A model generated the notes under the pieces. The model was not told the origin of the DNA, did no database searches, and saw nothing but the letters and a program-made list of their open reading frames with translations. The position numbers and the translations under genes were made by a program. DNA of 22,059 nt from a virus, in IMG/VR virus record IMGVR_UViG_3300006793_000323, positions 1 through 22,059 of that record. The stretch is one strand, 5' to 3'. Shown here piece after piece: positions 1,908 through 19,505 of this stretch (its first letter is position 1; each line of letters begins with the position of its first letter).

Positions 1908-2627
1908 ATGCCTTTACCAAAGATTGCTACACCAACATATGAACTTGAGTTGCCATCGACAGGAGAACCAATTCAATACAGACCTTTCCTTGTAAAAGAG
2001 GAAAAGATTTTAGTCATTGCTCTGGAGAGTGAAGATACTAAACAGATTACTACTGCCATCAAAGGTGTTATTAAGAACTGTATTAAGACAAAAGGTATCA
2101 AAGTAGAACAACTCCCTACATTTGATATTGAATTCCTCTTCCTAAACATTCGTGGTAAGTCGGTTGGTGAAGAGATTGAACTCAATATTGTTTGTCCTGA
2201 TGATGGTGAAACTGAAGTTCCTGTCTCAATTAATATTGATGACATTAAAATTCAGAAAGATGAAGAACATGATAATAAGATTAAGATTGGTGATGACTTG
2301 ATGATGGTAATGAAGTATCCTTCTTTGGAACAATTTATCAAAAACAACTTTGACTTTGAAGATAAGAATGCGATGGACCAATCATTTGATTTGATTGCAT
2401 CTTGTATTGAATCTATTTGTAGTGAAGAAGAGGTGTGGGCAGCAGGAGATTGTACCAAGAAAGAAATCAATGAGTTCCTTGAGTCTATGAACTCGTCTCA
2501 GTTTAAAGGTATTGAGAAGTTCTTTGAGACAATGCCTAAGTTATCGCACACTGTTTCTGTGACTAACCCTGCTACTAAAGTTAAGAGTGATGTTGTACTT
2601 GAGGGATTAGCGTCTTTTTTCGCGTAG
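1908..2627 (+). CDS. 26: Baseplate hub assembly chaperone, T4 gp26 family
   Basis: The 239-aa product has the layout of the T4 gp26 baseplate family: a short N-terminal beta region (TPTYELELPSTGEPIQYRPF), a helical middle ending in FDIEFLFLNIRGKSVG, a strand pair around a lone Cys (IELNIVCPDDGE) and a helical C-terminal half. In T4 gp26 acts in hub assembly. By position and function it parallels the gpG-type tail assembly chaperones encoded just before tape-measure genes. An AGGA at 1900-1903 precedes the ATG by 4 bases. The last codons contain a slippery run, TCT TTT TTC, just before the TAG, so a fraction of ribosomes may continue in the -1 frame (see 2601-2648). Confidence 0.85.
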   Translation: MPLPKIATPTYELELPSTGEPIQYRPFLVKEEKILVIALESEDTKQITTAIKGVIKNCIKTKGIKVEQLPTFDIEFLFLNIRGKSVGEEIELNIVCPDDGETEVPVSINIDDIKIQKDEEHDNKIKIGDDLMMVMKYPSLEQFIKNNFDFEDKNAMDQSFDLIASCIESICSEEEVWAAGDCTKKEINEFLESMNSSQFKGIEKFFETMPKLSHTVSVTNPATKVKSDVVLEGLASFFA

Positions 2628-2648
2628 GCATGGTTCATATGAACCTTG
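2601..2648 (+). promoter_or_regulatory. Candidate -1 programmed ribosomal frameshift signal
   Basis: Three elements line up. A Shine-Dalgarno-like GAGGG lies at 2601-2605. The heptamer T_TTT_TTC at 2615-2621 is in the gp26 zero frame, so both tRNA-Phe can re-pair after a -1 slip. A hairpin follows: perfect stem GGTTC/GAACC (2632-2636 with 2641-2645) with an ATAT loop, extended past a T-T mismatch by A2630-T2647 and C2629-G2648. Seven bases separate the heptamer from the extended stem, ten from the core stem. The gp26 stop TAG (2625-2627) follows within two codons, and the -1 frame stays open to 2809. The spacing resembles known bacterial -1 sites such as dnaX. It has not been tested. Confidence 0.7.
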
Positions 2649-2809
2649 AATCATACCTCAGGTTAAATTTTTCGCTGATTCAGTATCATAAATACTCATT
2701 AACGGAGATTGAAAATATGATACCATGGGAACGTGATATCTACGTCGCTTTATTACAACAACATCTTGAAGAAGAAAAGTTAAAGCATCAGCAAGCGAAT
2801 GGCATCTAG
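2630..2809 (+). CDS. Small -1-frame ORF, probable frameshift extension of gp26
   Basis: As a free ORF it would be 59 aa from the ATG at 2630 (or 56 aa from 2639). It lies in the -1 frame relative to gp26 and is open back through the slippery site at 2615-2621. Slippage there would add 62 residues to the first 238 of gp26, giving a 300-aa fusion. The segment is helical and rich in aromatic and charged residues; IPWERDIYVALLQQHLEEEK resembles the C-terminal extensions of gpGT-like tail chaperones. T4 has gene 51 at this position, but this ORF is far shorter and not visibly gp51. No Shine-Dalgarno precedes either ATG, which favours frameshift expression. Its 3' end overlaps the next gene by 11 bases. 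Confidence 0.7.
   Translation: MVHMNLESYLRLNFSLIQYHKYSLTEIENMIPWERDIYVALLQQHLEEEKLKHQQANGI
2687..2694 (+). promoter_or_regulatory. Candidate late promoter before the tape-measure-like genes
   Basis: CATAAATA matches seven of eight positions of the T4 late box TATAAATA. It lies inside the small -1-frame ORF, about 105 bases before the ATG at 2799. It could give extra late transcription of the large hub and tail genes. Because it is within coding sequence, a chance match is quite possible. Confidence 0.4.
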
Positions 2810-5800
2810 GACTACTACCGATCCAATAGAAATACTCTTAGAGATGGGTGTAGACCTGGATAATCTCTCCGAAGAGGAGGATTATCTTAGTGCGTTAAAA
2901 GAGGCGATTGCAACTATTCAGTTTCAAACGAAGGGTGCGGGTGATGAGAGATCTACCATCCTTCAGCAAGAAGTAGTAAAAGTAAGAAAGCAAAGAAAAG
3001 CAGCAGACCCTAAGTTTAAAGCAAGAAAGACAAAAATATCTGCAGATGCTTTTAAGAAAAGAACTGCATCTGAAGTACGACAGAATGTAAGGACTGGTGT
3101 AATCGATCCGTCTAAATTAAAATTTGATTCGGTTGATGTTGGACCAAAACCAAAAGCATTACCTACTAGTGCGATAGTTCCCTATCAGGCACCTGAGGCA
3201 GAAGAAGATACTAAAGCAAAGAAAAAGGAAAAACCAACAAATCTTTTAGAACAAATTGCTAAGTCGGTTACTAATATTGCCGATACACTTAAGGATCAAT
3301 ACAATTTAAAGAAGAAAGCGGGTGAGTTTGATAGAAAGAAAGCACAGAGAGATGCGAGAAAACTTAAGGAAAGTAATTTAGAGAAGGGATTCTCTGCATT
3401 ATTTAAGACAGCACAAAAAATAATTGCACCTGTCAGAGGAATTTTTGATAGGATATTTGGTTTCATTGCAAATATATTAATTGGAAAGTTTCTAGTTAAA
3501 CTGATAGGTTGGATATCTAAACCGGATAATCAGAAGAAACTAAAAAATATAATACAATTTCTAGGTAAACATTGGCCTAAGTTATTATCATTATATCTTG
3601 TATTTGGTACTGGACTAGGAAGATTTATCTTTGGTCTTACTAAGACTTTAATTGGTGGAGCAGTAAAACTTACTGTTGCTATTGCAAAACTTTTAGCAGC
3701 AAAAAAACTAGTCGGTGGTCTGGGTGCTAGAAAATTTGCACGACTACTTGGTGGTAAAAAAGGAAGACTTATAGCTGCTGGACTCACAACTGCATTGACA
3801 GTTGGAGGTACTTATGCTGCTACTAGTGCATTAGCAGGTGGAGGTGGAGAAACCCAAACACAAGGATTCTCTGGTGGCGGATTAGCAAAACCACCAAAAG
3901 TAGAACCACTTCCTAAAAATGCAGAGAGAAACCAGGGAATGTCTGGTGCTCAGAAGGGCATGGCATTTGGATCTTTATTTGGTCCACTTGGAATGGCTGC
4001 CGGTGCTGGTATCGGTTCTTTGTTTGATAATTTTGGTAAGAAGAAAGATGATACTGTAAAACTATCTTCTCCTGCAAAAGTAGAACTTGAAGTTCCATCT
4101 GGAACTGGATCTGAAGGTGAAGTAGATGGTCCTGGTGGAACTGATAAAGTACCAGCAATGCTTACTGCTGGTGAGTTTGTTATGTCTCGTGGTGCCGTAC
4201 AAAAGTATGGTGTTAAAGCACTCGAAGGAATGAATGCTGCTGGTGGAGGAACTAATCTGCCAAAAATGGTGAAGAATAAAGTTTATGCTGCAGGTGGTGG
4301 ATATATTGGTGGAGAAGGTGGTCCTGAGAAAATGAGTCCCCTACAGAGAATGAATACGCATTTTGGGGATCTTCCTATTATTGGTGATGTTATAAGAACT
4401 GTTTTAGCATACGAAGATAGGGCAAATTATCGTGGTGTTGATCAAAGATACCGTGATATGATGGGTCTCCCGCCCGGTCAAAAACCTGGTGGAGAAGGTG
4501 GACCTTACACTGATCCTATAATAAACATGGGAGTCACTGTACAGAGGCAACTGGAGAACAGACTTGTACATTTGATTCACCAAGCAGAGCAAATAATTCC
4601 AAGAATAGAAACAGCATTAGTTGGTATTGCAGTAGGATCGCAAACACTGGCGCAACAGACACAATTAACACTAGAACAAACAGCGATTGGTGCATATCGG
4701 CAGAGTGAACAATTTGCTACTGGACTTGCAAACGCAGGGCAACAAGTTGCTAATGATGTAGTTAATTATTATGAAAGTGGTGAAATGCAACGACAGATAG
4801 AAAAAACTGGTCAAGGTATTTTTGATACAGCGATGTCTACTGGTGAGTCTCTTAAGGAGGGAGCAACTTCTGCGGTTGCTGGTACTTTTGATGGTCTGTC
4901 TGCTGCTACTTCAAGTGAATCTTATACGAAAATGACAGAGATAACTGCTAGTGTCAATGATAGTAGTATAAAAGCTATGGATAGTATAGTTGATTCTCTA
5001 CCTGAAGATTCTCCTATGCAGGACATGGTGGATAAGGGATTAATCCCTATTCCAACTAGTAGTCCCGGTATGATGAGGAACATGACCTTTGTTAAGGCAT
5101 TGTTGGGTCCTCTTGGAATGCCATTTAAGATTATGAGTAACCCTGAAGTTGATAGGATGCGTCAACTTACTATTGATAAAACTTTAGAAAAATCTGGGTT
5201 GGTTATGGGTAAGGATGGTGAAGTTAAAATGAACTGGAACCAAGAGGATATCAATAAAGGGAGAGCAGGTGGTGGCGCGTATACTGATGATCTTGGTCCT
5301 GGTGGTAAAGCATTTAACTCTATCCTAGGAAGATTTACTGCATCTACTAAAGATGGTGGAAATGTTTTGTACACTGATGATAGGTATAACTTTAATAAGT
5401 CTACAGCAGAATATTTACAGAATGCAAAAGACCAAATGTTAAGTGGTGCTTTTGGTGAGGCAGCATACTTTGGCGCTGCTGCCTTAGGTAAGTTTGCAGA
5501 AGACCTTGGTTGGTTGAATCAAAGAGCACTTGGTAGTAGAATCGCAGTTGGGGAGGTAGATAGGGATGATAAACGGATTACAGGGTCAGCAAAACCAACA
5601 ACTGCTAGACCCAATGTTTCAGCAGCAGTAAAGCAGTTTGAAGGTGGCAATTATGATGCTGCAACTAAGGCGTTAGGTGGTGATCCATCTAAACCAGAAC
5701 CAATACCTCAGTTAACCGCACCATCACCTAAACCAGGAAAACCACAAAGAGAATGGTATGATCCTCGTGGATGGGTTGGTATGAACCAAGGTGGTATGGT

Positions 5801-6005
5801 TTCAGATGGTAATCTAAAACTGGGTACTAACACTCCAAGATTTAATTCTCCTGAAGCACCAATGCAAGCTAAAGTATCGGTCATTAGAATACCAAAAACA
5901 AAATCTAATGATAGTCTTCCAGCACCACGCGGAGGATCTAAAACTCCTGATATCAATGCTGGTAATGGAAGTGCTTCCAAGCGTAAGATTTTGGGGATAG
6001 TGTAA
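2799..6005 (+). CDS. Large tape-measure-like structural protein (paralogue 1)
   Basis: This is a 1068-aa protein. The N-terminal ~200 residues are highly charged and probably coiled coil. Residues ~208-345 are hydrophobic and Gly/Ala-rich (for example IFGFIANILIGKFLVKLIGW), like the membrane-active parts of tape measures. Residues ~440-460 carry a GPGGTDKVPAMLTAGEF motif common in tape-measure and hub proteins, and the C-terminal half is Gly/Pro-rich. It sits directly after the gp26 chaperone module, where tape-measure genes belong, and overlaps the small ORF by 11 bases. T4 gp29 (590 aa) is the functional counterpart, but homology is not visible by eye. The next gene shares its hydrophobic block and VPAML motif, so the two look like diverged duplicates. 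No enzyme domain is recognised. Confidence 0.75.
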   Translation: MASRTTTDPIEILLEMGVDLDNLSEEEDYLSALKEAIATIQFQTKGAGDERSTILQQEVVKVRKQRKAADPKFKARKTKISADAFKKRTASEVRQNVRTGVIDPSKLKFDSVDVGPKPKALPTSAIVPYQAPEAEEDTKAKKKEKPTNLLEQIAKSVTNIADTLKDQYNLKKKAGEFDRKKAQRDARKLKESNLEKGFSALFKTAQKIIAPVRGIFDRIFGFIANILIGKFLVKLIGWISKPDNQKKLKNIIQFLGKHWPKLLSLYLVFGTGLGRFIFGLTKTLIGGAVKLTVAIAKLLAAKKLVGGLGARKFARLLGGKKGRLIAAGLTTALTVGGTYAATSALAGGGGETQTQGFSGGGLAKPPKVEPLPKNAERNQGMSGAQKGMAFGSLFGPLGMAAGAGIGSLFDNFGKKKDDTVKLSSPAKVELEVPSGTGSEGEVDGPGGTDKVPAMLTAGEFVMSRGAVQKYGVKALEGMNAAGGGTNLPKMVKNKVYAAGGGYIGGEGGPEKMSPLQRMNTHFGDLPIIGDVIRTVLAYEDRANYRGVDQRYRDMMGLPPGQKPGGEGGPYTDPIINMGVTVQRQLENRLVHLIHQAEQIIPRIETALVGIAVGSQTLAQQTQLTLEQTAIGAYRQSEQFATGLANAGQQVANDVVNYYESGEMQRQIEKTGQGIFDTAMSTGESLKEGATSAVAGTFDGLSAATSSESYTKMTEITASVNDSSIKAMDSIVDSLPEDSPMQDMVDKGLIPIPTSSPGMMRNMTFVKALLGPLGMPFKIMSNPEVDRMRQLTIDKTLEKSGLVMGKDGEVKMNWNQEDINKGRAGGGAYTDDLGPGGKAFNSILGRFTASTKDGGNVLYTDDRYNFNKSTAEYLQNAKDQMLSGAFGEAAYFGAAALGKFAEDLGWLNQRALGSRIAVGEVDRDDKRITGSAKPTTARPNVSAAVKQFEGGNYDAATKALGGDPSKPEPIPQLTAPSPKPGKPQREWYDPRGWVGMNQGGMVSDGNLKLGTNTPRFNSPEAPMQAKVSVIRIPKTKSNDSLPAPRGGSKTPDINAGNGSASKRKILGIV

Positions 6006-6006
6006 G

Positions 6007-9000
6007 ATGGCAATAATCGGAGCGTTGGCAAAGGGATTGGCTAAAGGCGGCGGCCGTGCTGTTGCATCTAACATTATGGGACGCAAAAAGAAGGTGAAAC
6101 CATCTGCGATTGCACCCAGACAAGATCCTCAAGGTCAACAGCAGGGTCAAAGGAAGGGTAGTGCATTAGTTAAGTCTCCTACTACAGCAATAACAAAGGC
6201 GATGGCACCTATTCAAAAGGTTTCCACTGGTCCTGTTGCTAAAGGAGACTACCTTGCCATCATTCATGAGAAGGTTCTGACCATTGAGAAGATTGTCACT
6301 GGTGTTTACAAAGCAGAGAAAGATAATCTAAAGGCAGAGAAGCAAGCAGATAAAGATGACGATAGAAAGAATAGAGAACAAAAACTAGAAACAAAAGATA
6401 AGAAACCAGAGAAGAAAAAACCATCTCTTAAACAGTTACCTAAACTTGGTGTGTTTGGTTGGCTAAAAAGATTTATAGGAAATATTTTGATGGGATTATT
6501 CCTATCTAAAATGGTTGACTTTGCAGGACTCTTGCCTGGTATAGTCAGAGCGATTGATGGTATAACAACTTTCTTGGCAGACTTTGGCATCCTAATGGTC
6601 GATGCTCTAACCACGTTTGCTGACTGGGGTATCAAAGCATATAATTTTACGTTTGGTGCCATAGAAAAAGGTATAGGTCCTCTCTTTGGAGAAAATAGTG
6701 ACAAAGTTCTTGGTTTAATAGACACTGCAATATTTTTAACAACCACCATTGCTGCTGCCATGGCAGCAGAGGCATTGATGGGTGGCGGAGATGATGGACC
6801 TGGACTCTTAGATTTTATAAAAGGAAAGGGTGCCGCTAAAGGTGCTACTGCTGCTAAGGGTGCCACTGCTGCTAAGGGAACTGCCGCTGCTGGCGCTAAG
6901 GGAACTGCTGGTGTTGCTGGTGGTGCTGCCGCTACTGCTGCTGCGGTTGTTGCTGGTGTTGGATTGCTTTCATCTGCACTAGGTGAAGGTGCTTTCCAAC
7001 TCAGAAAAATTGGTAAGGGTCTTGAAGGTGGTGCTAAACAAAGATATGAAGAGAAAGGTCCTCTTGATCCAAGAAAACCACTTGATTGGTTATTATATCA
7101 GGGAGCAAGATTTGTAAATCATAATCTTAATGGTCTTGGTCTTCTTCTTGATATCGTTGGAGCACCATTCAGATATGCGATTGAGTTAATTAGTTTTGGT
7201 ATCATGGCTCTTCTTGGTGATACTGAGGGGATGAAGAAGCAGAGAAAAAATCTTGCAAAGTTTGATGCCAGAGTTCGTGAGGGTATTCGTCAGTTATTAA
7301 ATGTAGCAACTCTAGGATTTGGGTTTAAAGAGAAAGGATCTTTTGGAAACATTTTTGGTGACAATGAAGCCACCAAAGAAATGGTGGCTAAGATGCAAGA
7401 AGGTGGTAAGGTTAAAGGATCTGGAAAGGGTAAAGTACAGCGTGGTATTAAAACTAAAAAGAAAAAAAGAAAAAAACTTAGACTTGCTAGACCAACTAGA
7501 GAAGTAATGCAACCGCTGCCTACGGTAGATGAGAAAAAACTAGATCCAGATGATGTAGAAAAAAATAATAGAGAATGGTGGGATTTCCTTGGATGGGCTG
7601 GCACTGGAAATGCTCAGAAACCACTTGGACAAGGTGGAAAAATTCTTGCAGAAAAAACAACTAAAGTTGGTAATGAGTTAGGGAAGAACGAATACTTTGG
7701 ACCTATCTTAAGAGTGGCATCCAAGTTAATTTTGGATCAAGATATTACCTCAAGAGATTATTCAAATATTGGTCGCGGTATTAATATACTGGTTGATGAT
7801 GGTTTAGTAAAAAATAAAATTGGTGTACTAGGATATAATCAAGGTGGACTTGCTGAGAATCTCCCTCAGTTAGATGTAACTGATTGGGTATCTAAAACAT
7901 TTGAGGATACCTTGAGAGATGATTTGAAGAAAAAATATTTACCTAACTCTTCGTATGGTTCTACTGACGGACCAGGTTCTATACCAGGTGATAGAGATTC
8001 TTCTTCTGGTGAGTTGGTCCCAGGAAGTTCTCCTTTTATTGGAAGCATGAAGGGAGCGCGGATTGGTGAACAGCATCTTTTAGATGCTATGAAGAAATAC
8101 AATTATACTGGTGATCCTGCTGTTCTGATGGCAATTGTAAAAGGAGAATCAAATTTCCAGGCAACAGAAGAAAAGATGTATGTTTCTGCTGAACGTGCAA
8201 ATAAGATATTTCGTGGTAGATTTAGAGATGTAGCACATGCACAACAGTTAATTAATGCTGGAAAGAAAGCATTCTATGATCATGTATATCAACCAAAGTA
8301 TGTTAGTATGAATGAAAAACCCGATGATGGATATCGATATATTGGCAGGGGTCACATTCAATTGACCGGTCGTTCAAATTATAGAGAAATTGGAGAGCTT
8401 ATTGGTAGAGATCTTGAAGGAGACCCGTTACAACTACTGAATAATCCTACTGTTTCTGCAGAAGCAGCAGTTGGTTTCATGATAAATGCAAATAAGAGGT
8501 ATGGAAAAGATATTAACACCATGGAAGGTTCTTTAAGAACAGTTGGTGGATCAGACACAAGTTGGCCCCAGAAAAGACAATATTATGAGGAATATAAAAA
8601 GAAAATTAAATCAGGACAGGTAGGTAATAATGCAACACCAGATGGAGTTGAACAAGGATTACCAGAAACTCCAGAGATGCAAGCTGGTGCTAGTGGATAC
8701 ACTGTAACTAGAAGTGGACAAACTATAAGCAACTTTTCACAACTTCCACCACACCACACATATCAAAGAAGTAAAGATGGTAGAGGTGCTTTAGTTCAAG
8801 ACTTTACTTTGTATAAGAATAAAAAGTTTTTTGGTATACCAGTTCCTTCTCCTGTAAGTGGTAAAGTTTCTTGGGCTGGTTCTGCAGGCGGTGGTGGAAA
8901 CTGGGTCGAACTTATGAGTGACTCTGGTCAAAAAGTTGAGTTAGGTCACTTTGATAAAATTGGAGTGAAAGCCGGACAAACTGTAAAAGCATTCTCAACT

Positions 9001-9450
9001 TCACTTGGTACTCAAGGATTTACTGGAAACATAAGACCAAAAAATAAAGATGGAACTCATGTTCACATGCAGGCACCAGATGAAGTGATGAAGAGGTATG
9101 TCAATACCTTAGCAAAATATCAATACGGTGGTTTAGTAAGAGGACCTGGTGGCATTGACAATGTTCCTGCCATGCTGACTGCTGGTGAGATAATCATTGA
9201 CGTTGATAGTGCTGGTCCAGCAAGGAATTTGTTACTTGCTATGAATCAGGCATCAGACAAAGCAGGGATTATCAAAGCAATCAGAGACTATGCTCCTTAT
9301 GATGCAAGAGCAGAGCAGACAGTCATAGTCCCTGAGGAGTCTGAAGATGCGCCACAGGTGATGGCATCTGGTGGTTCCTCCTCAACAACATTGTTACCAG
9401 TTCTTATGGGTGGTTCAAATCCATTTGAGTTCTTGGAATATCAAGGTTAA
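6007..9450 (+). CDS. Tape-measure/hub protein with GH19 lysozyme-like and M23-like domains (paralogue 2)
   Basis: This 1147-aa protein starts one base after the previous stop. Residues ~100-145 are charged coiled coil; ~149-260 are hydrophobic (FGWLKRFIGNILMGLFLSKM); an Ala/Gly/Lys low-complexity run follows at ~274-310. Residues ~681-870 match GH19 chitinase/endolysin landmarks: a KGES motif with Glu714, TEEKMYVSAER with Glu721/722, then YIGRGHIQLTGRSNY. Residues ~925-1030 resemble an M23 (LytM) peptidase: Asp932, LGH with His981, and the HVH motif with His1018 and His1020. The usual first zinc-ligand His, four before Asp932, is Ala928, so activity is doubtful. VPAMLTAGEI follows at 1053-1062. 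Probable role: a virion-borne peptidoglycan-cutting tail protein that opens the host wall, replacing the lysozyme domain of T4 gp5. Confidence 0.85.
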   Translation: MAIIGALAKGLAKGGGRAVASNIMGRKKKVKPSAIAPRQDPQGQQQGQRKGSALVKSPTTAITKAMAPIQKVSTGPVAKGDYLAIIHEKVLTIEKIVTGVYKAEKDNLKAEKQADKDDDRKNREQKLETKDKKPEKKKPSLKQLPKLGVFGWLKRFIGNILMGLFLSKMVDFAGLLPGIVRAIDGITTFLADFGILMVDALTTFADWGIKAYNFTFGAIEKGIGPLFGENSDKVLGLIDTAIFLTTTIAAAMAAEALMGGGDDGPGLLDFIKGKGAAKGATAAKGATAAKGTAAAGAKGTAGVAGGAAATAAAVVAGVGLLSSALGEGAFQLRKIGKGLEGGAKQRYEEKGPLDPRKPLDWLLYQGARFVNHNLNGLGLLLDIVGAPFRYAIELISFGIMALLGDTEGMKKQRKNLAKFDARVREGIRQLLNVATLGFGFKEKGSFGNIFGDNEATKEMVAKMQEGGKVKGSGKGKVQRGIKTKKKKRKKLRLARPTREVMQPLPTVDEKKLDPDDVEKNNREWWDFLGWAGTGNAQKPLGQGGKILAEKTTKVGNELGKNEYFGPILRVASKLILDQDITSRDYSNIGRGINILVDDGLVKNKIGVLGYNQGGLAENLPQLDVTDWVSKTFEDTLRDDLKKKYLPNSSYGSTDGPGSIPGDRDSSSGELVPGSSPFIGSMKGARIGEQHLLDAMKKYNYTGDPAVLMAIVKGESNFQATEEKMYVSAERANKIFRGRFRDVAHAQQLINAGKKAFYDHVYQPKYVSMNEKPDDGYRYIGRGHIQLTGRSNYREIGELIGRDLEGDPLQLLNNPTVSAEAAVGFMINANKRYGKDINTMEGSLRTVGGSDTSWPQKRQYYEEYKKKIKSGQVGNNATPDGVEQGLPETPEMQAGASGYTVTRSGQTISNFSQLPPHHTYQRSKDGRGALVQDFTLYKNKKFFGIPVPSPVSGKVSWAGSAGGGGNWVELMSDSGQKVELGHFDKIGVKAGQTVKAFSTSLGTQGFTGNIRPKNKDGTHVHMQAPDEVMKRYVNTLAKYQYGGLVRGPGGIDNVPAMLTAGEIIIDVDSAGPARNLLLAMNQASDKAGIIKAIRDYAPYDARAEQTVIVPEESEDAPQVMASGGSSSTTLLPVLMGGSNPFEFLEYQG
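6841..6894 (+). repeat. 18-base in-frame tandem repeat (Ala/Lys/Gly low complexity)
   Basis: Units at 6841-6858 and 6859-6876 differ at one base and encode GATAAK twice. A third, degenerate unit follows at 6877-6894, and related Ala/Gly codons continue to about 6960. It probably makes a flexible or helical linker after the hydrophobic block of the tape-measure-like protein. The repeat could vary in copy number between relatives. Confidence 0.7.
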
Positions 9451-9473: not shown

Positions 9474-10817
9474 ATGTCGCAAGAAGTATTTTCTAAGGAT
9501 GCTGAACCCACTAGTATTAAACAGATAGACATCCAGTCAAACGTAGACCAAAGTAAAATTGCTGGTCTTACTAATGGTTTTGCTGGAATGACTTATACAG
9601 AAAGTATCATGAGTGATACTATTAAAGTCAGAGTTAGTTTTATTGACAGTGGAGATAGTCTTGATGATAAAACTGTAACCGAGGCATTGCCTTTAGTTGG
9701 GCAAGAGCAGGTCAGATTAAAATTTTCTGATAATAATGAAAACACTTTAGAACCAATTTTATATGTCAATAAAATTACTAATAATGTAGATAGAACACAA
9801 GACTCGATGGTAACTTTAGATCTAGTATCTAAAGAGTTTATTCTGAATGAAAAGAAAAGAGTTAATCAAAGATTTGACGGCAAGGTTTCCGATCACATCA
9901 ATAAGTTGATGACTGACAAAAAATATCTTGGTACAGAAAAGACTGTTGATATCGAACAAACTTCAAACTTATATAATTTTTTTGGTAATAATAAGAAACC
10001 TTTTTATACATTGACTTGGCTGTGTAATAAATCTGTGTCAGAAGAAAATCAAACTCTTGGTAAGAGTGCTGGATATTTTTTCTATGAAACATCTGAAGGT
10101 TTCTTTTTTAAATCTATTGATGGTTTATTGAGTCAAGAACCAAAATTAAAGTTAATTTATAATGAAACACCCGACGTTAATGGTAATATCCCTGAAGGAT
10201 ATGATCAAAAGATTCTTGACTTCAAAAAAGATAACAGTACAAATGTGCAAAGCAAATTGCAGATGGGTGCTTTCTCTAGTAGAACGGTTTTATTTGATCC
10301 CTTTACATGCTACTATGAAGTAAAGGCACCAAACGTATCAGAGAAGGGTGTTGAGGAATCATTAACACTAGGTGGTAAAGATTTATATCTTGGAAAGAAA
10401 TTTAGAAATAAAGAGTTTGACCAGGAAGGAACGAACGAAGAGTTCTCAAGAACAACTTACTTCTTACTCGATAAAGGAACTGCTCCAGCTGGAGATGTTG
10501 ACCAACAACTTTCTAAGTCAGGAGAGGAGAACTTTGAGTATGGTCAAATTGCAAATCAATCTGTTATGAGGTACAATCAAATGTACTCTGCGAGAGCAAG
10601 TATAACGATTGCAGGTAATTTTTCTTTGCACGCTGGCGATGCGATTTACATAGATTCACCAGGACTTAAAAAAGAAAAGACTTCTGATGTGGATCGCAAA
10701 GATGGTGGGCTATATATTATAACGGATATCTGTCATCAAATTACATCTGAAGGAACATATACTCAATGCAATTTAGCTAGAGACTCTTTCGGAAGAAAAC
10801 CAAAATCACGTAATTAA
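9474..10817 (+). CDS. 27: Baseplate central hub protein, gp27-like
   Basis: The 447-aa protein has the strand-rich make-up of a hub ring protein. It opens with IKQIDIQSNVDQSKIAGLTN and a SIMSDTIKVRVSFIDSG strand block, then VTLDLVSKEFILNEKKRV, and ends with GDAIYIDSPG and a YIITDICHQI...YTQCNLARD closing segment. That last segment is common to gp27/GpD-type hubs, where it closes the second barrel. T4 gp27 (391 aa) forms the trimeric ring that holds gp5. The location one small gene upstream of gp5 supports the call. A GAGGT at 9461-9465, eight bases before the ATG, is one of the few good ribosome binding sites here. The identification rests on layout and fold-like features rather than on strong sequence identity. 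Confidence 0.7.
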   Translation: MSQEVFSKDAEPTSIKQIDIQSNVDQSKIAGLTNGFAGMTYTESIMSDTIKVRVSFIDSGDSLDDKTVTEALPLVGQEQVRLKFSDNNENTLEPILYVNKITNNVDRTQDSMVTLDLVSKEFILNEKKRVNQRFDGKVSDHINKLMTDKKYLGTEKTVDIEQTSNLYNFFGNNKKPFYTLTWLCNKSVSEENQTLGKSAGYFFYETSEGFFFKSIDGLLSQEPKLKLIYNETPDVNGNIPEGYDQKILDFKKDNSTNVQSKLQMGAFSSRTVLFDPFTCYYEVKAPNVSEKGVEESLTLGGKDLYLGKKFRNKEFDQEGTNEEFSRTTYFLLDKGTAPAGDVDQQLSKSGEENFEYGQIANQSVMRYNQMYSARASITIAGNFSLHAGDAIYIDSPGLKKEKTSDVDRKDGGLYIITDICHQITSEGTYTQCNLARDSFGRKPKSRN

Positions 10818-10822
10818 AAAAA

Positions 10823-11050
10823 ATGGAAAGTGTAGAAAAGCATATTGAAGTAGATAAAAAGATCCTTGAAGATCCAACTACTTCGCCCCAACAACGTCGC
10901 CACATTGAAGGCGAACTAAATGAACTCAATGTATATGTTGAGAATCATAAGGAAGAAATTGCTGCTGGTGACCATCATGATCCTACAGCATTAGAACTTT
11001 ATTGTGAGATGGAACCTGAAGCAGACGAATGTAGGATGTACGACGACTGA
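10823..11050 (+). CDS. CP12-like small protein
   Basis: This 75-aa acidic protein ends DPTALELYCEMEPEADECRM-YDD. The C-x8-C pair (Cys61, Cys70) followed by R-x-YDD is the C-terminal signature of CP12, the disordered Calvin-cycle regulator that locks GAPDH and phosphoribulokinase into an inactive complex. TTSP at 19-22 also aligns with the TTSPEC region of cyanobacterial CP12. The N-terminal cysteine pair is absent and the AWDxVEEL core is degenerate (GELNEL), so phosphoribulokinase binding may be changed. Cyanophages are known to carry cp12. Here it sits in the hub operon: 5 bases after gp27 in an A-run with no Shine-Dalgarno, and TGATG-coupled to gp5. It would be expressed late. Alternatively it is a virion protein that only resembles CP12. 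Confidence 0.72.
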   Translation: MESVEKHIEVDKKILEDPTTSPQQRRHIEGELNELNVYVENHKEEIAAGDHHDPTALELYCEMEPEADECRMYDD

Positions 11051-12935: not shown

Positions 12936-15900
12936 ATGTCGTTTAATATCTTCGGACCAACGCAAAAAAAAGATATTCAAGTTGGATATATTTCAACTGA
13001 TAGAGGTTATATACAAAATGTTAGCATCCTTGCTGCCAACAATTATGCATTTAAAAATCCTGGCACCACTTTTATCGTAGAGACGAGAGATGGAGTAAAA
13101 TATTTTAATATAAATGAGGTTAATAATTTAAAACCAGAGGATATTCTCCCAAGTAATACTGCTGCAGATGGAACTTGTCAGGGAGTGGTTGGTTTAAGTC
13201 CACAAACTATTGGAAATGCTGTTGCAATAGGAACTGGAAGTCCTGGTAATAATACAAATCTGCATGATTATCTTCCTCGCGGACCATATGGACAACGACC
13301 AACTGGACTTACACCTCCTACAGACCGACCAACTGGACTTACACCTCCTACAGACCGACCAACTGGACTTGGACCTGCTCCTACCGGCATTGGAACGGTT
13401 GGTAATGGAGGTCCGATTGTAGTTATCTCTGGGTGTGGTGGTGTTGGTGCATCTGCTGTTCCTATCATCGGTGATGATGGTGGTATTTTGGATATTGTAG
13501 TGACTTCTGGTGGATTTGGATATAGGTGTCCACCAAAAGTTAGTGTAATTGATCCAAATAAAAGGGGAAGTGGAGTTGTTGCTACATCAGTGATTGGTGT
13601 ATCAACATCTCCGACACTAATAACTTATGATGATGAGGATGATTTTGAAATATATGATTTCGATCCTAGAAATGGTATTCCAGGTCTCACTGGATATGGA
13701 AATAGAGTAGGTCCTGATGGAGATGATTTAGGAGACTGGGATCCAACTTTATATGCTACTTTTGCAAAGGATCCCATCGGTATTGAGATTGCAAGATACC
13801 AAAAATATTTAAAAGAATTAAGAAATCCTTGGTGGTCTACTAGAAAAGAGACTCCTTTAAATATTTCGTTTGGGAAAAAGAAAGATAGAGTAAAACATGA
13901 TGTACAACATCATGCTTGGGATGGTGATGAGAAACTTAAATCAGGACTCAACACTCAGTATAAAGATGTAGAGTTTGAGGTTTTCACTCAAGGTGGAAAT
14001 AATGCTGATAAAGGGTTGATATTTAAGTTTGTTTCGGAAGATGGATCCCACAAATTTCAATTCAAAGCAGAGAGTTATACAGACAGTAGAAAGACTAAAG
14101 TCACGAAAAAGATAAGAGTAAACACTACCTATTTGATTACTTCCTCAGGATCCTTTAAAGGGGGAGGAGTTGAGCAAGGTCTTATCGGAAATCTTGGAAG
14201 AGACGCAAAAGAAATTAAAGGCAATAATAAAAAAGGATCTACTATATTTGCCGACTTTGTTAGGTCATCTAATGACAATGATGATTTACAAATCAGAGCA
14301 ACTCAAGGTAGATTTACTGCGACTGGTGAAAGAAAATTTGAAGGACATTCTACAACTGACCTTGAATATAGATTTGATGTTAAGGGACCTGGTGCTGGTA
14401 CGGATAAGAAAATAAAACCATCATTCATGAACAACTATGCTATTTCTCCTGTTCCTGCATCAGATGTTCCTGGTAGTGATTTTGCTGGTAGATGGTGTAC
14501 CTTTGATTGGGAAGAAGATTTCCCTTATTCGGGTGAATATGTCTTCAGAGGAATGGCAGATAACATTGGTAAGATGTATCTTGATAATGAACTCATCATG
14601 GAAGCAAGACATTTTAGAGGAGATCCATTACCTTCTAATGTAATTAAAAAAACTGTTGAGGCAGGAGTTCATAAAATTAAGGTAGACCTGTTTAATGCAC
14701 CTCAGAAAGATAATACTTCTACCACTGTAAAAAATAATACGCAAGATGAGAAGAAAAAAATTCCTGTAAACTTTGATGTTTATGGTCAGGGAAGTAAGAG
14801 CAATACTGCTATTAATATGGTGTTTACTTCTGAAGATGGCAAGCATTCGTTTACATTTAAACCAGAAAAACTTAAAGGTAGTAAGTACGATTACAAGAAA
14901 ACAGTAAGAGTTTTTCCAAACACTCAATATAAAGTGCAAGCAATTGCTACTGCATCACATAGAATTAGAAGGAATGATCCATCACCAACCCCAAACAGTG
15001 AAACAAAATTTCCTATAGCAATCACGGGCAATTCTTCCACTTCGGGGTTAGAAGTTAATGATAGTGGAAAAAGAATTAGATATGATGATAATGCCGCCAA
15101 TGGTTTTGATGAGAACGCTCAACTTAGAATTATGTCATCGTCTCCTGGAGTTAATGCCAGATTCTCTAGAGATGGGTCAGAACTTGTGGTTAGGGGTTCG
15201 GGTGATGTCACCTTAAAGTTTAGTTGGGATGATAACCCCAATACCTCTGGACTCGCAGTAGGAAGACTGACAGTAGGAGGACAAGTTTTCCAACAGATTA
15301 ATGAAAAAGGTAGTCAAACCAAAACTGTTACCATTGGAAGTAATGTTTCAGGTGTTAGTGGTAATGAAAGAAGCACTCCTATTAACTATACGAATTTAAA
15401 TTCTGCAAATCTAGGACAAATCGATGTTTCGCGTAGTGGTAGTAGAATTAAATTAAAAGATGGTGACGGTAATGATACGAATGCATCTATTCGTATCCTG
15501 AATGTACGAAATGGGACAGCAAAATTTAGTAGGAGTGGCACGCAAATAATTACGACAGGTAATTGTAGAGTTACGATCAAGTTAGAGTGGGATGATAATC
15601 CAAGAACTGCTGGAGTTGCATTAGATTCTGTTGAAATTGGTGGAGTTAATTTCAGAAGAAGGGGTGAGGATGGAGATGTTACTAAAGATGTAACATTTGA
15701 GGCAGTAGAAGCACCCGTAAGTAGAGATCAAACCGTAAACTTGGTTCCAGAACAAGGAACTTTGAAATCAAATGCGTTCAAAAAAGGTAAACAGAAAGAA
15801 AATGGCACTAGATCTAATGTAATTTTTGCCGACATCATTGGGTCTGTAAATGATAATGATGACATGCAAGTGAGATGTGGTCAAGGAGTTTTTGTCCCAA

Positions 15901-18900
15901 CTAATAGAAGAAAGATTACCGGAACTGGACCTAGGGGTGAGCAAACTAGAAGCACTTGGGATCTTACTTTTACAGTAAACGCAAAACCATCATTAAAACC
16001 TAAAGATTCTGGAACAAATGTAACTGAAATCTTTAACACTACAGACTACATTAATAAGGCAGATAGAAAACTTTGGAGAACAAATCTCTACGGTAATGCT
16101 TCTTTTTTAAATGCATATGGAATCTGCCCCTTCAATACGGTCACTAAAAAGAATGAAGATTATGATGGAACTCATATAATTCGTTGGGAACACATCACTT
16201 TTCCTGCTGATGGCAATTATCAGATTGAACTGGAAGTTGATGATAAAGTCAAACTATTCATTGGTAATCGCTCTGGTGCTGGCGCTATGGGAATTGGTAA
16301 TGGACTGAAAAATGTTGATAATGGTGGAGATGAAGTTATCATTGAGAAGGACGGATTTGTAGGAGGCAGTAACAGGTCAACTGGAAAGAGCACCTACACT
16401 AGATTCTTTAGGAAAGGTCAGTATAGAATCAGAGCAGAACTTTATCAAAAACCTGGTGGTGATTTTGGTTTTAGTGGTAGAAAATCTTATGGACAAAAAG
16501 ATGGGTCCAATATCTCTGCAAAGTTTGTCAGACGTGGAGACAAAAACTTTCTTAAGGTAGATGGATCTGGGACTGCAGAAATTAGTTTTCGTTTAAGAGT
16601 AGATGATAATCCAAGAGTATCTGGAATTTTTGGATCTAAAGTTAAAATCGGTCGTCCGCCGAATGATTATGTTCTTCTGTCTAGAAGAAAATCTGGAAAT
16701 GGGTATAAAGAAAAAGAAAGAATTACTGGGTCTGATACATTTGAGGCAGGAAGAGAGTATCCCGTAGAGACTATTGGATCATCTAGAGGAACAGGATCTG
16801 TTATAAAAAATAATGGAAGGACAATTGAATATGATGATAACATTGGCAACGGATTTGATGAGAACGCAGATCTTTCTATCACTAAAGTAAAAAATAAACA
16901 GGGCGCACCTAATAAGGGACTCAATCCAATGGCGCTTGCCATTAGAATTAGGGCAGATGTGCTTGAAACTACTAGAATCTCCCCCAGAACCTGGAATCAA
17001 AATCCAATGGGAGCAGCATTCACTATTGATGCACCTCTTCCACCTATTCCCATCTCACCCAAACCAATTAGCGAGGGTAGATGTCCAGATAACCCTACAT
17101 GGACTACGAGATTCTCTGGCGGTAACGAAAAGTGGTGGCCTGTTACTCATAAATTTAGAGATGGATCAAGGTCGTGGTCTAAGTTTATGAATAGATTTGC
17201 AATCTCACCGATTCCTCCTTTAGGAACAATCAATAGTGATGGTGGTGGAATTGTTTATAGAAACACTTGGAATATTGACATTCTTCATGCAGGTTTTTAT
17301 GCACTCAAAGGAACTGTTGACAATGGAGGAAGAATTTTAGTTGATGGCGCAGAAAAAATGCGTGGAGGTTATTTTAGTGGCGCGACGTTTGCTGGTTCAG
17401 GTTCAGAGGGTCAGGGAAGATTGGCAGGATTTAGAGAGACATCTCCGCCGATGCATAAGTTCTACTTAGATGAAGGTAAGCATACCATCACTGTTGAAGT
17501 TGAGAATCAAAAGACTCTTAAGCAAAAGAAAGTAGAGAAAAAAATCTTCAGCACTCGGGATTGGAGAGAACCAAAACCAAAATCCTCAGGTGGAGGAAAA
17601 CCAACAAATGTTGACTTTAGAGTTACGACTGATGCAAAATTTGCAAACTCAGTTGAATTTGTTGGTGAATTTTCTTTCGGTAAAACTTATGATGGACCAC
17701 AATTGAGGGAGTCTACCACTAAATCTTTACTAGATGGTACTGTATATGATGTAATCTTTAATAGTAATCGTGGTGGTGGCAATACTAGTAGTAGTGGTGG
17801 TGAATATACAATCAACTATGAATATGCAAATGCCACTGCTTTTGGTTTAGAAGTTAATGATAGTAGAAAAAGAATTAGATATGATGATGATGCCAGCAAC
17901 GGTTTCGATGAAAATGCTCAACTTAGGATCATGTCATCATCTCCTGGAGTTAATGCTAGGTTCTCCACTGATGGAACTAAACTTTTAGTTCAAGGTGATG
18001 GGGATGTAACAATCAAATATGATTGGGATGACAATCCAGGTACTTCTGGATCTGTTTTGAGGTCCCTCGAAATTGCCGGAAAAACTTGGAGACAAAGTGG
18101 TGGATCGGGTGAGCAAACTGAAACGATAAGAGTATCTGGTCCAACTGGTCCAACAAGAAGTAGAACTCCTGGTAACAATAACTCAAATATTAAACTTAGA
18201 AATGCTGGTGAGAAAGTTGTTCAGATGGAAGACCATACTGATAATGATTGGAGTGATCTTGTTATTAGTGCATCTGTTGGTAGATTTTATGATTTTAACG
18301 GTAACAGATGTAAGTTTGCGCTTGCGCCAACCACTCCCACAAAAGATGTAAGAGTAACTAAGGGTGGTGTTACTTATGTGGGACCCCCATTGTTTGTTAT
18401 TAAGTCTGGAGCAGCAGCTAAATTTTGGAGTAAATATATGCTGAGAAACTCTGTTTCTCCTTTCATTCCCCCAATAGATGTAGATAGTACTAATCATCTT
18501 GGAGACAAAACATATATTTGGAAGAATGTTGATTTCTTTGAGTCTGGACAGTACAAATTCTTATTCCAATCTGATGATGGAGCAACTCTTTATATTAACG
18601 GTAATAAAGTTGTAGAGTCTAAATCTAATTTTAGAGGAGAAGCTAGTCCTACATATGCGGAACTTTCTCCAGGAAAATATGAGATAAAGGTTGTTTGTAA
18701 CAATATAAGGTTTGATAGAAATGTTTTGACAGGCAATAATCCAACTGGATTTGCTCTAAAAATCATGAAGGATGTTGTTATCTCTGAAAAATCATTCCCA
18801 TGGACAACCAATCCTGTTGGAATATCTGCAATGCTGATCCCGCCACCATGTCCTAAAGTTGTTAAAGGAAAAGGGGTAGTCACTGATATCATTGTAAAAG

Positions 18901-19505
18901 ACCCTGGAAATGGGCATGAACCAGATAAAGGACCAGGAACTCCCACGATAGTTACGATTAAAGATATTGAACCAACTCTTCCTGGCATTAACTATAGTTC
19001 AGGTGACATAGGAATCATTAATGATATCCCTGTCACTCTTGAAGTTGATAATTTTGGTAGAATTACTAAAATCAATGTTCCTACAGGTAGTGGTGACGGT
19101 GATGGTAGTGGTACAGCAATTAGAGTTACAGATACTCCTGTAATTGATGTACCATCTTTGACTGGAGTTGGATTTAGAGGAACTCCTATCTTAGAAACAA
19201 CTATTGTTCCAGAGGAAGTATTTGCGCCCGAAGACATAATCCAAGTTACAGATTTGGTTGGTCTTACACAAAACGGTTATGTCAATGGCAAACCTTACTA
19301 TGGCAGTGTATTCTCCAGAGATGGTAGATTGTTTGCTGGAATCTATGAAACAACTGGAGAATTAGTTCCTGTTTATGCAACTCTTCAAGAGAGTATTGCT
19401 AATAGAGTTACCACTAGACCTTCTGCAATCCTTAGACAGGGTACAAGTGCCAACAGTAACAATCCTAACCTTAATATTCCAGGAACTCCTCAAAATCTCA
19501 TCTAG
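12936..19505 (+). CDS. Giant modular virion structural protein (2189 aa), likely adhesin or fibre
   Basis: The N-terminus (~1-70, IQVGYISTDRGYIQNVSI) looks like a docking domain, followed by a Pro/Thr repeat linker and a Gly-rich GGFGYRCPPKVSV module. The body alternates modules. Four PA14-like beta-sandwich units start near residues 497, 1057, 1417 and 1834, sharing F/YMNxxAISP, a W-x-F/I segment, GxYxF and LYINGNxVxE. At least four modules end in a DDNPxTSG hairpin (near 764, 885, 1223, 1697). D/N-rich stretches (SNDNDDLQI, VNDNDDMQV, HTDNDWSDL) may bind calcium. The C-terminus (ITDLVGL-like, then NPNLNIPGTPQNLI) resembles other large cyanophage structural proteins as I recall them. PA14-like units usually bind glycans, so host-surface attachment is plausible but inferred. 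No enzyme motif is seen. No Shine-Dalgarno precedes the ATG. Confidence 0.8.
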   Translation: MSFNIFGPTQKKDIQVGYISTDRGYIQNVSILAANNYAFKNPGTTFIVETRDGVKYFNINEVNNLKPEDILPSNTAADGTCQGVVGLSPQTIGNAVAIGTGSPGNNTNLHDYLPRGPYGQRPTGLTPPTDRPTGLTPPTDRPTGLGPAPTGIGTVGNGGPIVVISGCGGVGASAVPIIGDDGGILDIVVTSGGFGYRCPPKVSVIDPNKRGSGVVATSVIGVSTSPTLITYDDEDDFEIYDFDPRNGIPGLTGYGNRVGPDGDDLGDWDPTLYATFAKDPIGIEIARYQKYLKELRNPWWSTRKETPLNISFGKKKDRVKHDVQHHAWDGDEKLKSGLNTQYKDVEFEVFTQGGNNADKGLIFKFVSEDGSHKFQFKAESYTDSRKTKVTKKIRVNTTYLITSSGSFKGGGVEQGLIGNLGRDAKEIKGNNKKGSTIFADFVRSSNDNDDLQIRATQGRFTATGERKFEGHSTTDLEYRFDVKGPGAGTDKKIKPSFMNNYAISPVPASDVPGSDFAGRWCTFDWEEDFPYSGEYVFRGMADNIGKMYLDNELIMEARHFRGDPLPSNVIKKTVEAGVHKIKVDLFNAPQKDNTSTTVKNNTQDEKKKIPVNFDVYGQGSKSNTAINMVFTSEDGKHSFTFKPEKLKGSKYDYKKTVRVFPNTQYKVQAIATASHRIRRNDPSPTPNSETKFPIAITGNSSTSGLEVNDSGKRIRYDDNAANGFDENAQLRIMSSSPGVNARFSRDGSELVVRGSGDVTLKFSWDDNPNTSGLAVGRLTVGGQVFQQINEKGSQTKTVTIGSNVSGVSGNERSTPINYTNLNSANLGQIDVSRSGSRIKLKDGDGNDTNASIRILNVRNGTAKFSRSGTQIITTGNCRVTIKLEWDDNPRTAGVALDSVEIGGVNFRRRGEDGDVTKDVTFEAVEAPVSRDQTVNLVPEQGTLKSNAFKKGKQKENGTRSNVIFADIIGSVNDNDDMQVRCGQGVFVPTNRRKITGTGPRGEQTRSTWDLTFTVNAKPSLKPKDSGTNVTEIFNTTDYINKADRKLWRTNLYGNASFLNAYGICPFNTVTKKNEDYDGTHIIRWEHITFPADGNYQIELEVDDKVKLFIGNRSGAGAMGIGNGLKNVDNGGDEVIIEKDGFVGGSNRSTGKSTYTRFFRKGQYRIRAELYQKPGGDFGFSGRKSYGQKDGSNISAKFVRRGDKNFLKVDGSGTAEISFRLRVDDNPRVSGIFGSKVKIGRPPNDYVLLSRRKSGNGYKEKERITGSDTFEAGREYPVETIGSSRGTGSVIKNNGRTIEYDDNIGNGFDENADLSITKVKNKQGAPNKGLNPMALAIRIRADVLETTRISPRTWNQNPMGAAFTIDAPLPPIPISPKPISEGRCPDNPTWTTRFSGGNEKWWPVTHKFRDGSRSWSKFMNRFAISPIPPLGTINSDGGGIVYRNTWNIDILHAGFYALKGTVDNGGRILVDGAEKMRGGYFSGATFAGSGSEGQGRLAGFRETSPPMHKFYLDEGKHTITVEVENQKTLKQKKVEKKIFSTRDWREPKPKSSGGGKPTNVDFRVTTDAKFANSVEFVGEFSFGKTYDGPQLRESTTKSLLDGTVYDVIFNSNRGGGNTSSSGGEYTINYEYANATAFGLEVNDSRKRIRYDDDASNGFDENAQLRIMSSSPGVNARFSTDGTKLLVQGDGDVTIKYDWDDNPGTSGSVLRSLEIAGKTWRQSGGSGEQTETIRVSGPTGPTRSRTPGNNNSNIKLRNAGEKVVQMEDHTDNDWSDLVISASVGRFYDFNGNRCKFALAPTTPTKDVRVTKGGVTYVGPPLFVIKSGAAAKFWSKYMLRNSVSPFIPPIDVDSTNHLGDKTYIWKNVDFFESGQYKFLFQSDDGATLYINGNKVVESKSNFRGEASPTYAELSPGKYEIKVVCNNIRFDRNVLTGNNPTGFALKIMKDVVISEKSFPWTTNPVGISAMLIPPPCPKVVKGKGVVTDIIVKDPGNGHEPDKGPGTPTIVTIKDIEPTLPGINYSSGDIGIINDIPVTLEVDNFGRITKINVPTGSGDGDGSGTAIRVTDTPVIDVPSLTGVGFRGTPILETTIVPEEVFAPEDIIQVTDLVGLTQNGYVNGKPYYGSVFSRDGRLFAGIYETTGELVPVYATLQESIANRVTTRPSAILRQGTSANSNNPNLNIPGTPQNLI
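13296..13370 (+). repeat. 30-base in-frame tandem repeat, 2.5 copies
   Basis: Units 13296-13325 and 13326-13355 are identical, and the first 15 bases recur at 13356-13370. Each encodes RPTGLTPPTD, a proline-rich linker between the N-terminal docking region and the rest of the giant protein. Identity at the DNA level suggests recent slippage or expansion. Confidence 0.9.
15048..15251 (+). repeat. Copy A of a ~204-base internal duplication
   Basis: It aligns without gaps to 17847-18050 at roughly 80% identity by hand count; the first ~120 bases are more alike than the rest. It encodes a unit from LEVNDSGKRIRYDD through NGFDENAQLRIM to SWDDNPNTSG. A more distant third relative (NGFDENADL) lies near 16840. 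Confidence 0.9.
17847..18050 (+). repeat. Copy B of the ~204-base internal duplication
   Basis: It aligns to 15048-15251 at a constant offset of 2799 bases with no indels. It encodes LEVNDSRKRIRYDD through NGFDENAQLRIM to DWDDNPGTSG. Most early differences are synonymous, which points to duplication or gene conversion inside the giant gene. Confidence 0.9.

Follow-up and report, generated by a model that had tools for sequence, protein, structure and literature searches.

A probable −1 ribosomal frameshift linking gp26 to a small downstream reading frame in a T4-like marine phage

In the stretch of DNA analysed here (22,059 nucleotides; hereafter the window), which covers part of the structural gene cluster of a marine phage of the T4-like kind, one gene very probably gives rise to two versions of a tail chaperone by way of a −1 ribosomal slip at a run of six Ts. 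By analogy, we infer that gp26 itself is the short tail assembly chaperone (TAC-N), and that its fusion to the small reading frame downstream (TAC-C) is the long one (TAC-NC). Frameshifting is the favoured reading because a slippery heptamer, a −1 frame that is coding even where it has no start, SD-like codons upstream, a covarying hairpin downstream, and homology to T4 gp51 all point to it. Likewise, we infer the occurrence of slippage, its rate, and the chaperone role of the products. The features concerned are collected in Table 1.

Table 1. Features of the putative frameshift region, with positions counted in the window.
Feature	Position	Strand	Basis
gp26 / TAC-N, putative short tail assembly chaperone	1908..2627	+	PF12322, PHROG 150, T4 gp26 profile
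GAGGG, putative SD-like stimulator, 9 nt before heptamer	2601..2605	+	Codon choice, anti-SD match
Slippery heptamer T_TTT_TTC, in gp26 phase	2615..2621	+	In-frame T_TTT_TTY conserved in relatives
−1 frame / TAC-C, 62 residues (RVGM...NGI) appended to gp26 after the slip	2615..2809	+	Open in all scorable relatives; PHROG 634; T4 gp51
Frame-0 stop TAG	2625..2627	+	Stop of gp26 frame
Alternative longer hairpin, 8-bp core 2630-2637/2647-2654	2627..2657	+	Best predicted fold; P-SSM2 clade position
First in-frame ATG of the −1 ORF (mechanical 'gp51' start), not needed by the model	2630..2632	+	Missing in many relatives
Inner hairpin GGTTC-ATAT-GAACC	2632..2645	+	Paired cells, compensatory changes

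The gp26 gene and its slippery heptamer

The 239-residue product of gp26 shares 79–81% identity with those of the Synechococcus phages SynMITS9220M01, Bellamy, and S-SM2, and is matched by Pfam PF12322 (T4_baseplate; E 3e-74) and PHROG 150 (E 2e-78). A sequence search of the PDB with gp26 gave no match, nor did a search of NCBIfam. A fold search of the PDB with an AF2 model of gp26 (pLDDT 84.5), whose alignment was made up of the window and the IMG/VR loci only, likewise gave nothing significant; the HK97 chaperone 2ob9 ranked 3–4 at an E of about 1.

For the comparative analysis, we used 420 sequences, these being the window, T4, 17 annotated regions in which a gp26 relative occurs, and 401 loci from IMG/VR, with the relatives spanning Kyanoviridae, Straboviridae, and unplaced T4-like phages. 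Among the relatives there are 356 distinct gp26 3′ ends, and such sequence counts do not equate to independent events. The gp26 frame in the window ends in TCT TTT TTC GCG TAG, and the preliminary description of this DNA had correctly placed gp26, the heptamer, the GAGGG, the TAG, and a −1 frame that is open to 2809. An in-frame T_TTT_TTY is present in 353 of the 356 distinct 3′ ends, the exceptions being Vibrio phages K444 and VP-1 and one Klebsiella phage (with the T4 arrangement), and the check on conservation of the slippery run that had been suggested earlier thus speaks for a frameshift. In fact, the heptamer is almost invariant at synonymous positions, and the run is fixed at six Ts followed by C in 337 of the 353 relatives. 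This conservation is significant because, elsewhere in these genes, TTT TTC encodes just 14 of 368 Phe-Phe pairs (3.8%). Moreover, in 336 of the 353, the first base of the frame-0 stop lies 7–10 nt past the start of the heptamer. As a separate observation, frame 0 runs seven codons further beyond the slip site in Pelagibacter phage Mosig (L082, 1201–1932) and 15 similar distinct relatives.

Within the window, TTTTTTC occurs 15 times against 11.6 expected, with just two of these on the + strand; a chance origin of the heptamer in gp26 is excluded by its conservation across relatives. The second in-frame T_TTT_TTC (10076–10082), located inside gene 9474–10817, stays open in the −1 frame for just three codons and looks like a chance occurrence. 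Relatives that lack any slippery run had been named at the outset as evidence against frameshifting, and K444 (L090) and VP-1 (L091) literally are such relatives, in that the second ORF has an overlapping TAATG start and there is no in-frame heptamer, but both phages are distant and leave the cyanophage group untouched. This TAATG overlap suggests a switch in expression strategy.

The −1 reading frame and its likeness to T4 gp51

The predicted fusion comprises 238 residues of gp26 and the 62 of TAC-C, for a total of 300. TAC-C matches PHROG 634 and the C-terminal end (242–281) of PHROG 150. From the slip site, the −1 ORF extends for 58–71 codons in all 344 scorable relatives, while the +1 frame in the same relatives has a median length of just 10 codons before it closes; the reading-frame relation, which the preliminary description had suggested checking, is thus conserved. 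In 100 of the 344, the −1 frame lacks ATG, GTG, and TTG codons all the way from its upstream stop to codon 16, and the −1 ORF of Mosig has no start ahead of its conserved part. This start-less stretch is nonetheless coding in the −1 frame, because its variation lies mainly at third −1 codon positions, with mean entropies for the three positions of 0.09, 0.09, and 0.87 in the S-RSM4 clade, 0.40, 0.45, and 1.14 in the S-E7 clade, and 0.77, 0.63, and 1.16 in the Mosig clade. Frameshifting would be the simplest route to such a stretch.

Alternatively, gp51 could be a separate gene, expressed through termination-reinitiation (TAG GC ATG) or from the ATG at 2639, with the T-run being incidental, though this we regard as very improbable. 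It does match the way in which gp51 is annotated in records, and starts exist both in the window and, as ATGs, in 209 of the 344 relatives; the distant Vibrio phages K444 and VP-1, moreover, have the TAATG overlap and no heptamer. The anti-SD match of the ATG at 2639 is passable, its AGG having a predicted pairing of −4.6 kcal/mol, which is on par with that at gp26's own start (−4.0). The earlier claim that neither internal ATG has a ribosome-binding site thus stands for the ATG at 2630, which has no anti-SD match, but not for the one at 2639. We dropped weak SD pairing at the internal ATGs as a case against reinitiation, since the anti-SD match at the start of the next gene is weak as well. 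What speaks against a separate gene is that the stretch remains coding in the −1 frame in the 100 start-less relatives, that the heptamer is near-invariant at synonymous positions, and that T4 gp51 joins both domains covalently. In five publicly annotated regions from such start-less phages (L081, L082, L083, L084, and L097), the annotated 'gp51' starts 29–53 nt past the gp26 stop, and conserved N-terminal residues are therefore lost from it.

T4 transcribes gene 26 (208 aa) and gene 51 (249 aa) in divergent directions, and both products are listed as hub assembly chaperones, of which gp51 is needed but not present in the virion (PMC3004832). Using hhalign, T4 gp26 was aligned with only the gp26 part of the window's fusion (probability 99.6%), while the alignment of T4 gp51 runs over the entire fusion and across its junction (probability 98.3%, E 1.6e-14). 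The C-terminus of T4 gp51 matches TAC-C alone (E 2e-6), and T4 gp51 also matches gp26 (probability 96.2%). The comparison with the two T4 genes that had been drawn previously proved correct and can be sharpened, for T4 gp51 is, by these profiles, a full gp26-like domain plus the domain of the small ORF, which is the one that cyanophages would reach via a frameshift. Also annotated in T4 is gene 26' (L098, 4303–4590), as a shorter product of gene 26.

Elements upstream and downstream of the slip site

Five codons ahead of the slip, Glu-Gly is encoded as GAG GGN or GAA GGG in 227 of 240 cases, against the 33% expected from codon use in the rest of gp26. In four of five clades, this spacing is also where the best anti-SD match falls; for the S-RSM4 clade, it lies 30 nt upstream and outside the usual spacing. 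The choice of codons upstream keeps an anti-SD match intact.

Downstream, the arms of the inner hairpin (2632–2636 and 2641–2645) begin 10 nt past the heptamer. This hairpin has 90.8% of its cells paired (slid registers reach at most 57%), and 20 cells are altered on both sides compared with 7.5 in shuffles, the variant pairs among relatives being GTC/GAC, ATC/GAT, GTT/AAC, and ATT/AAT. Compensatory changes in a conserved downstream hairpin had been named before as something to check, and these two-sided changes speak for a frameshift. While the GGTTC/GAACC hairpin of the preliminary description is real, the best predicted fold of 2622–2675 is instead the longer stem (−11.5 kcal/mol; z of −1.5 when taken alone), which is predicted to win over the inner hairpin in the window itself. 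The longer stem sits where the P-SSM2 clade has its conserved stem, 87.5% of which is paired. As a feature of the window's whole clade, the longer stem was rejected, given that just 31.6% is paired; the stem is restricted to the window's close relatives and to the P-SSM2 clade. A different hairpin, 84.6% paired, occupies the same place in the S-RSM4-like clade. Measured against synonymous recodings of the same peptide, the hairpins are the stronger, with a median z of −2.7 in the window's clade, −4.3 in the P-SSM2 clade, and −3.9 in the S-RSM4 clade. The hairpin is not universal, because it is weak in the Mosig clade (median z of −1.5 against such recodings), and in the S-E7 clade no hairpin signal was found (median z of −0.4). 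In our estimate, there is an even chance that the frameshift signal of marine T4-like phages is a three-part and fast-diversifying recoding cassette, in which an SD-like element maintained through codon choice and an unchanging heptamer are joined by a hairpin that differs between clades, shifts its register and sequence yet stays in place, and is absent from some lineages.

The internal ATGs also allow for a non-exclusive refinement of the frameshift model, by which the fusion is made together with some free TAC-C from reinitiation wherever a start exists. We consider this possible but rather unlikely: about 60% of relatives have ATGs a short way from the stop, and the second ATG (HM) is common in the window's clade, but free TAC-C is unnecessary, as start-less lineages manage, and the ATG at 2630 is without an anti-SD match. 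Moreover, the ATGs sit within the hairpin, so that any selection on them is confounded. It is extremely improbable, on the other hand, that the −1 product comes from transcriptional slippage on the T-run rather than from the ribosome. The homopolymer run is indeed conserved in relatives, but it has just six Ts, fixed and then followed by C, and transcriptional slippage usually needs longer runs than this; the X_XXY_YYZ phase, the SD-like element, and the hairpin are, in addition, ribosomal signals.

Proposed mechanism, gene context, and known systems

In the proposed frameshift, most ribosomes would end at the TAG and release the 239-residue TAC-N. Some would be held at TTT TTC by the purine run pairing with 16S rRNA and by the hairpin ahead, and would then back up by one base, with the Phe tRNAs giving up their pairing to UUU UUC for one to UUU UUU. 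Having slipped, these ribosomes would continue to 2809 and make the 300-residue TAC-NC at a set ratio to TAC-N. By analogy with lambda gpG/gpGT, both forms may coat and deliver the tape measure or hub during tail assembly.

The upstream gene (986–1867) is tail tube-like (PF23849), while matches of the next gene (2799–6005) are limited to families of unknown function. In HTVC008M, a 'putative tail tape measure' is annotated two genes downstream of its gp51. The products of 2799–6005 (1068 aa) and of the adjacent 6007–9450 (1147 aa) are both very large and mostly match unknown families, and have in common a GPGGxDxVPAMLTAGE motif, with N-terminal regions that are weakly alike; the product of 6007–9450 also carries GH19 and M23 domains. 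Either of the two may be the tape measure. Elsewhere in the window, a CP12-domain gene (10823–11050), homologous to a host carbon-metabolism regulator, is found within the tail/baseplate cluster, and 12936–19505 encodes a 2189-aa virion structural protein (PHROG 32965), several stretches of which match 'major head protein' families.

The proposed arrangement resembles lambda gpG/gpGT in that a tail gene is frameshifted by −1 close to its end, yielding a minor form with a C-terminal extension, and in its position after the tail tube gene, although the PDB searches gave no significant sequence or fold match between gp26 and lambda-type chaperones. Tail-gene frameshifts were reportedly treated by Xu, Hendrix and Duda in 2004. 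The abstract of a 2022 paper by Vladimirov and colleagues is likewise said to name T4 genes 26 and 51 and to describe frameshifting as conserved in several other T4-like groups. As cited in PMC12846349, that paper (Vladimirov, Gautam & Davidson 2022, Virology 566:9-15, doi 10.1016/j.virol.2021.11.003) concerns slippery poly-T signals that T4-like phages have in their TAC-N genes, and, as cited in the PRFect paper (PMC10885494), some T4-like phages pair a short gene with a fused long one in place of frameshifting. Going by these citations, the same kind of locus, the short and long forms, and the poly-T slippery site are shared with the window. Our finding is thus one well-supported case of something already proposed in print and known in substance, to which the SD-like element, the clade-specific covarying hairpins, and the start-less lineages are possible additions. 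In the open-access literature searched, we found no other cyanophage description and no report of stimulatory elements, which is weak evidence.

In what PMC12846349 relates of the TAC locus in Vandenendeviridae and Andersonviridae, the −1 frame is likewise open in every allele, a T-run is conserved at the TAC-N 3′ end, and the downstream ORF is misannotated as a gene, though the motif is GTTTTT and not the T_TTT_TTC of the window. Escherichia coli dnaX and IS911 similarly have an SD-like element upstream and a stem-loop 5–8 nt downstream of X_XXY_YYZ, but these other genes use an A-run and Lys tRNA where the window has a T-run and Phe tRNA (PMC4066793).

A frameshift would explain the tiny cyanophage 'gp51' records with inconsistent or implausible starts, and would mean that such annotations miss the real product. 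More broadly, the comparison lends support to the view that the hub-assembly proteins gp26 and gp51 are T4's counterpart of the lambda G/GT pair, made from two genes where relatives would rely on recoding.
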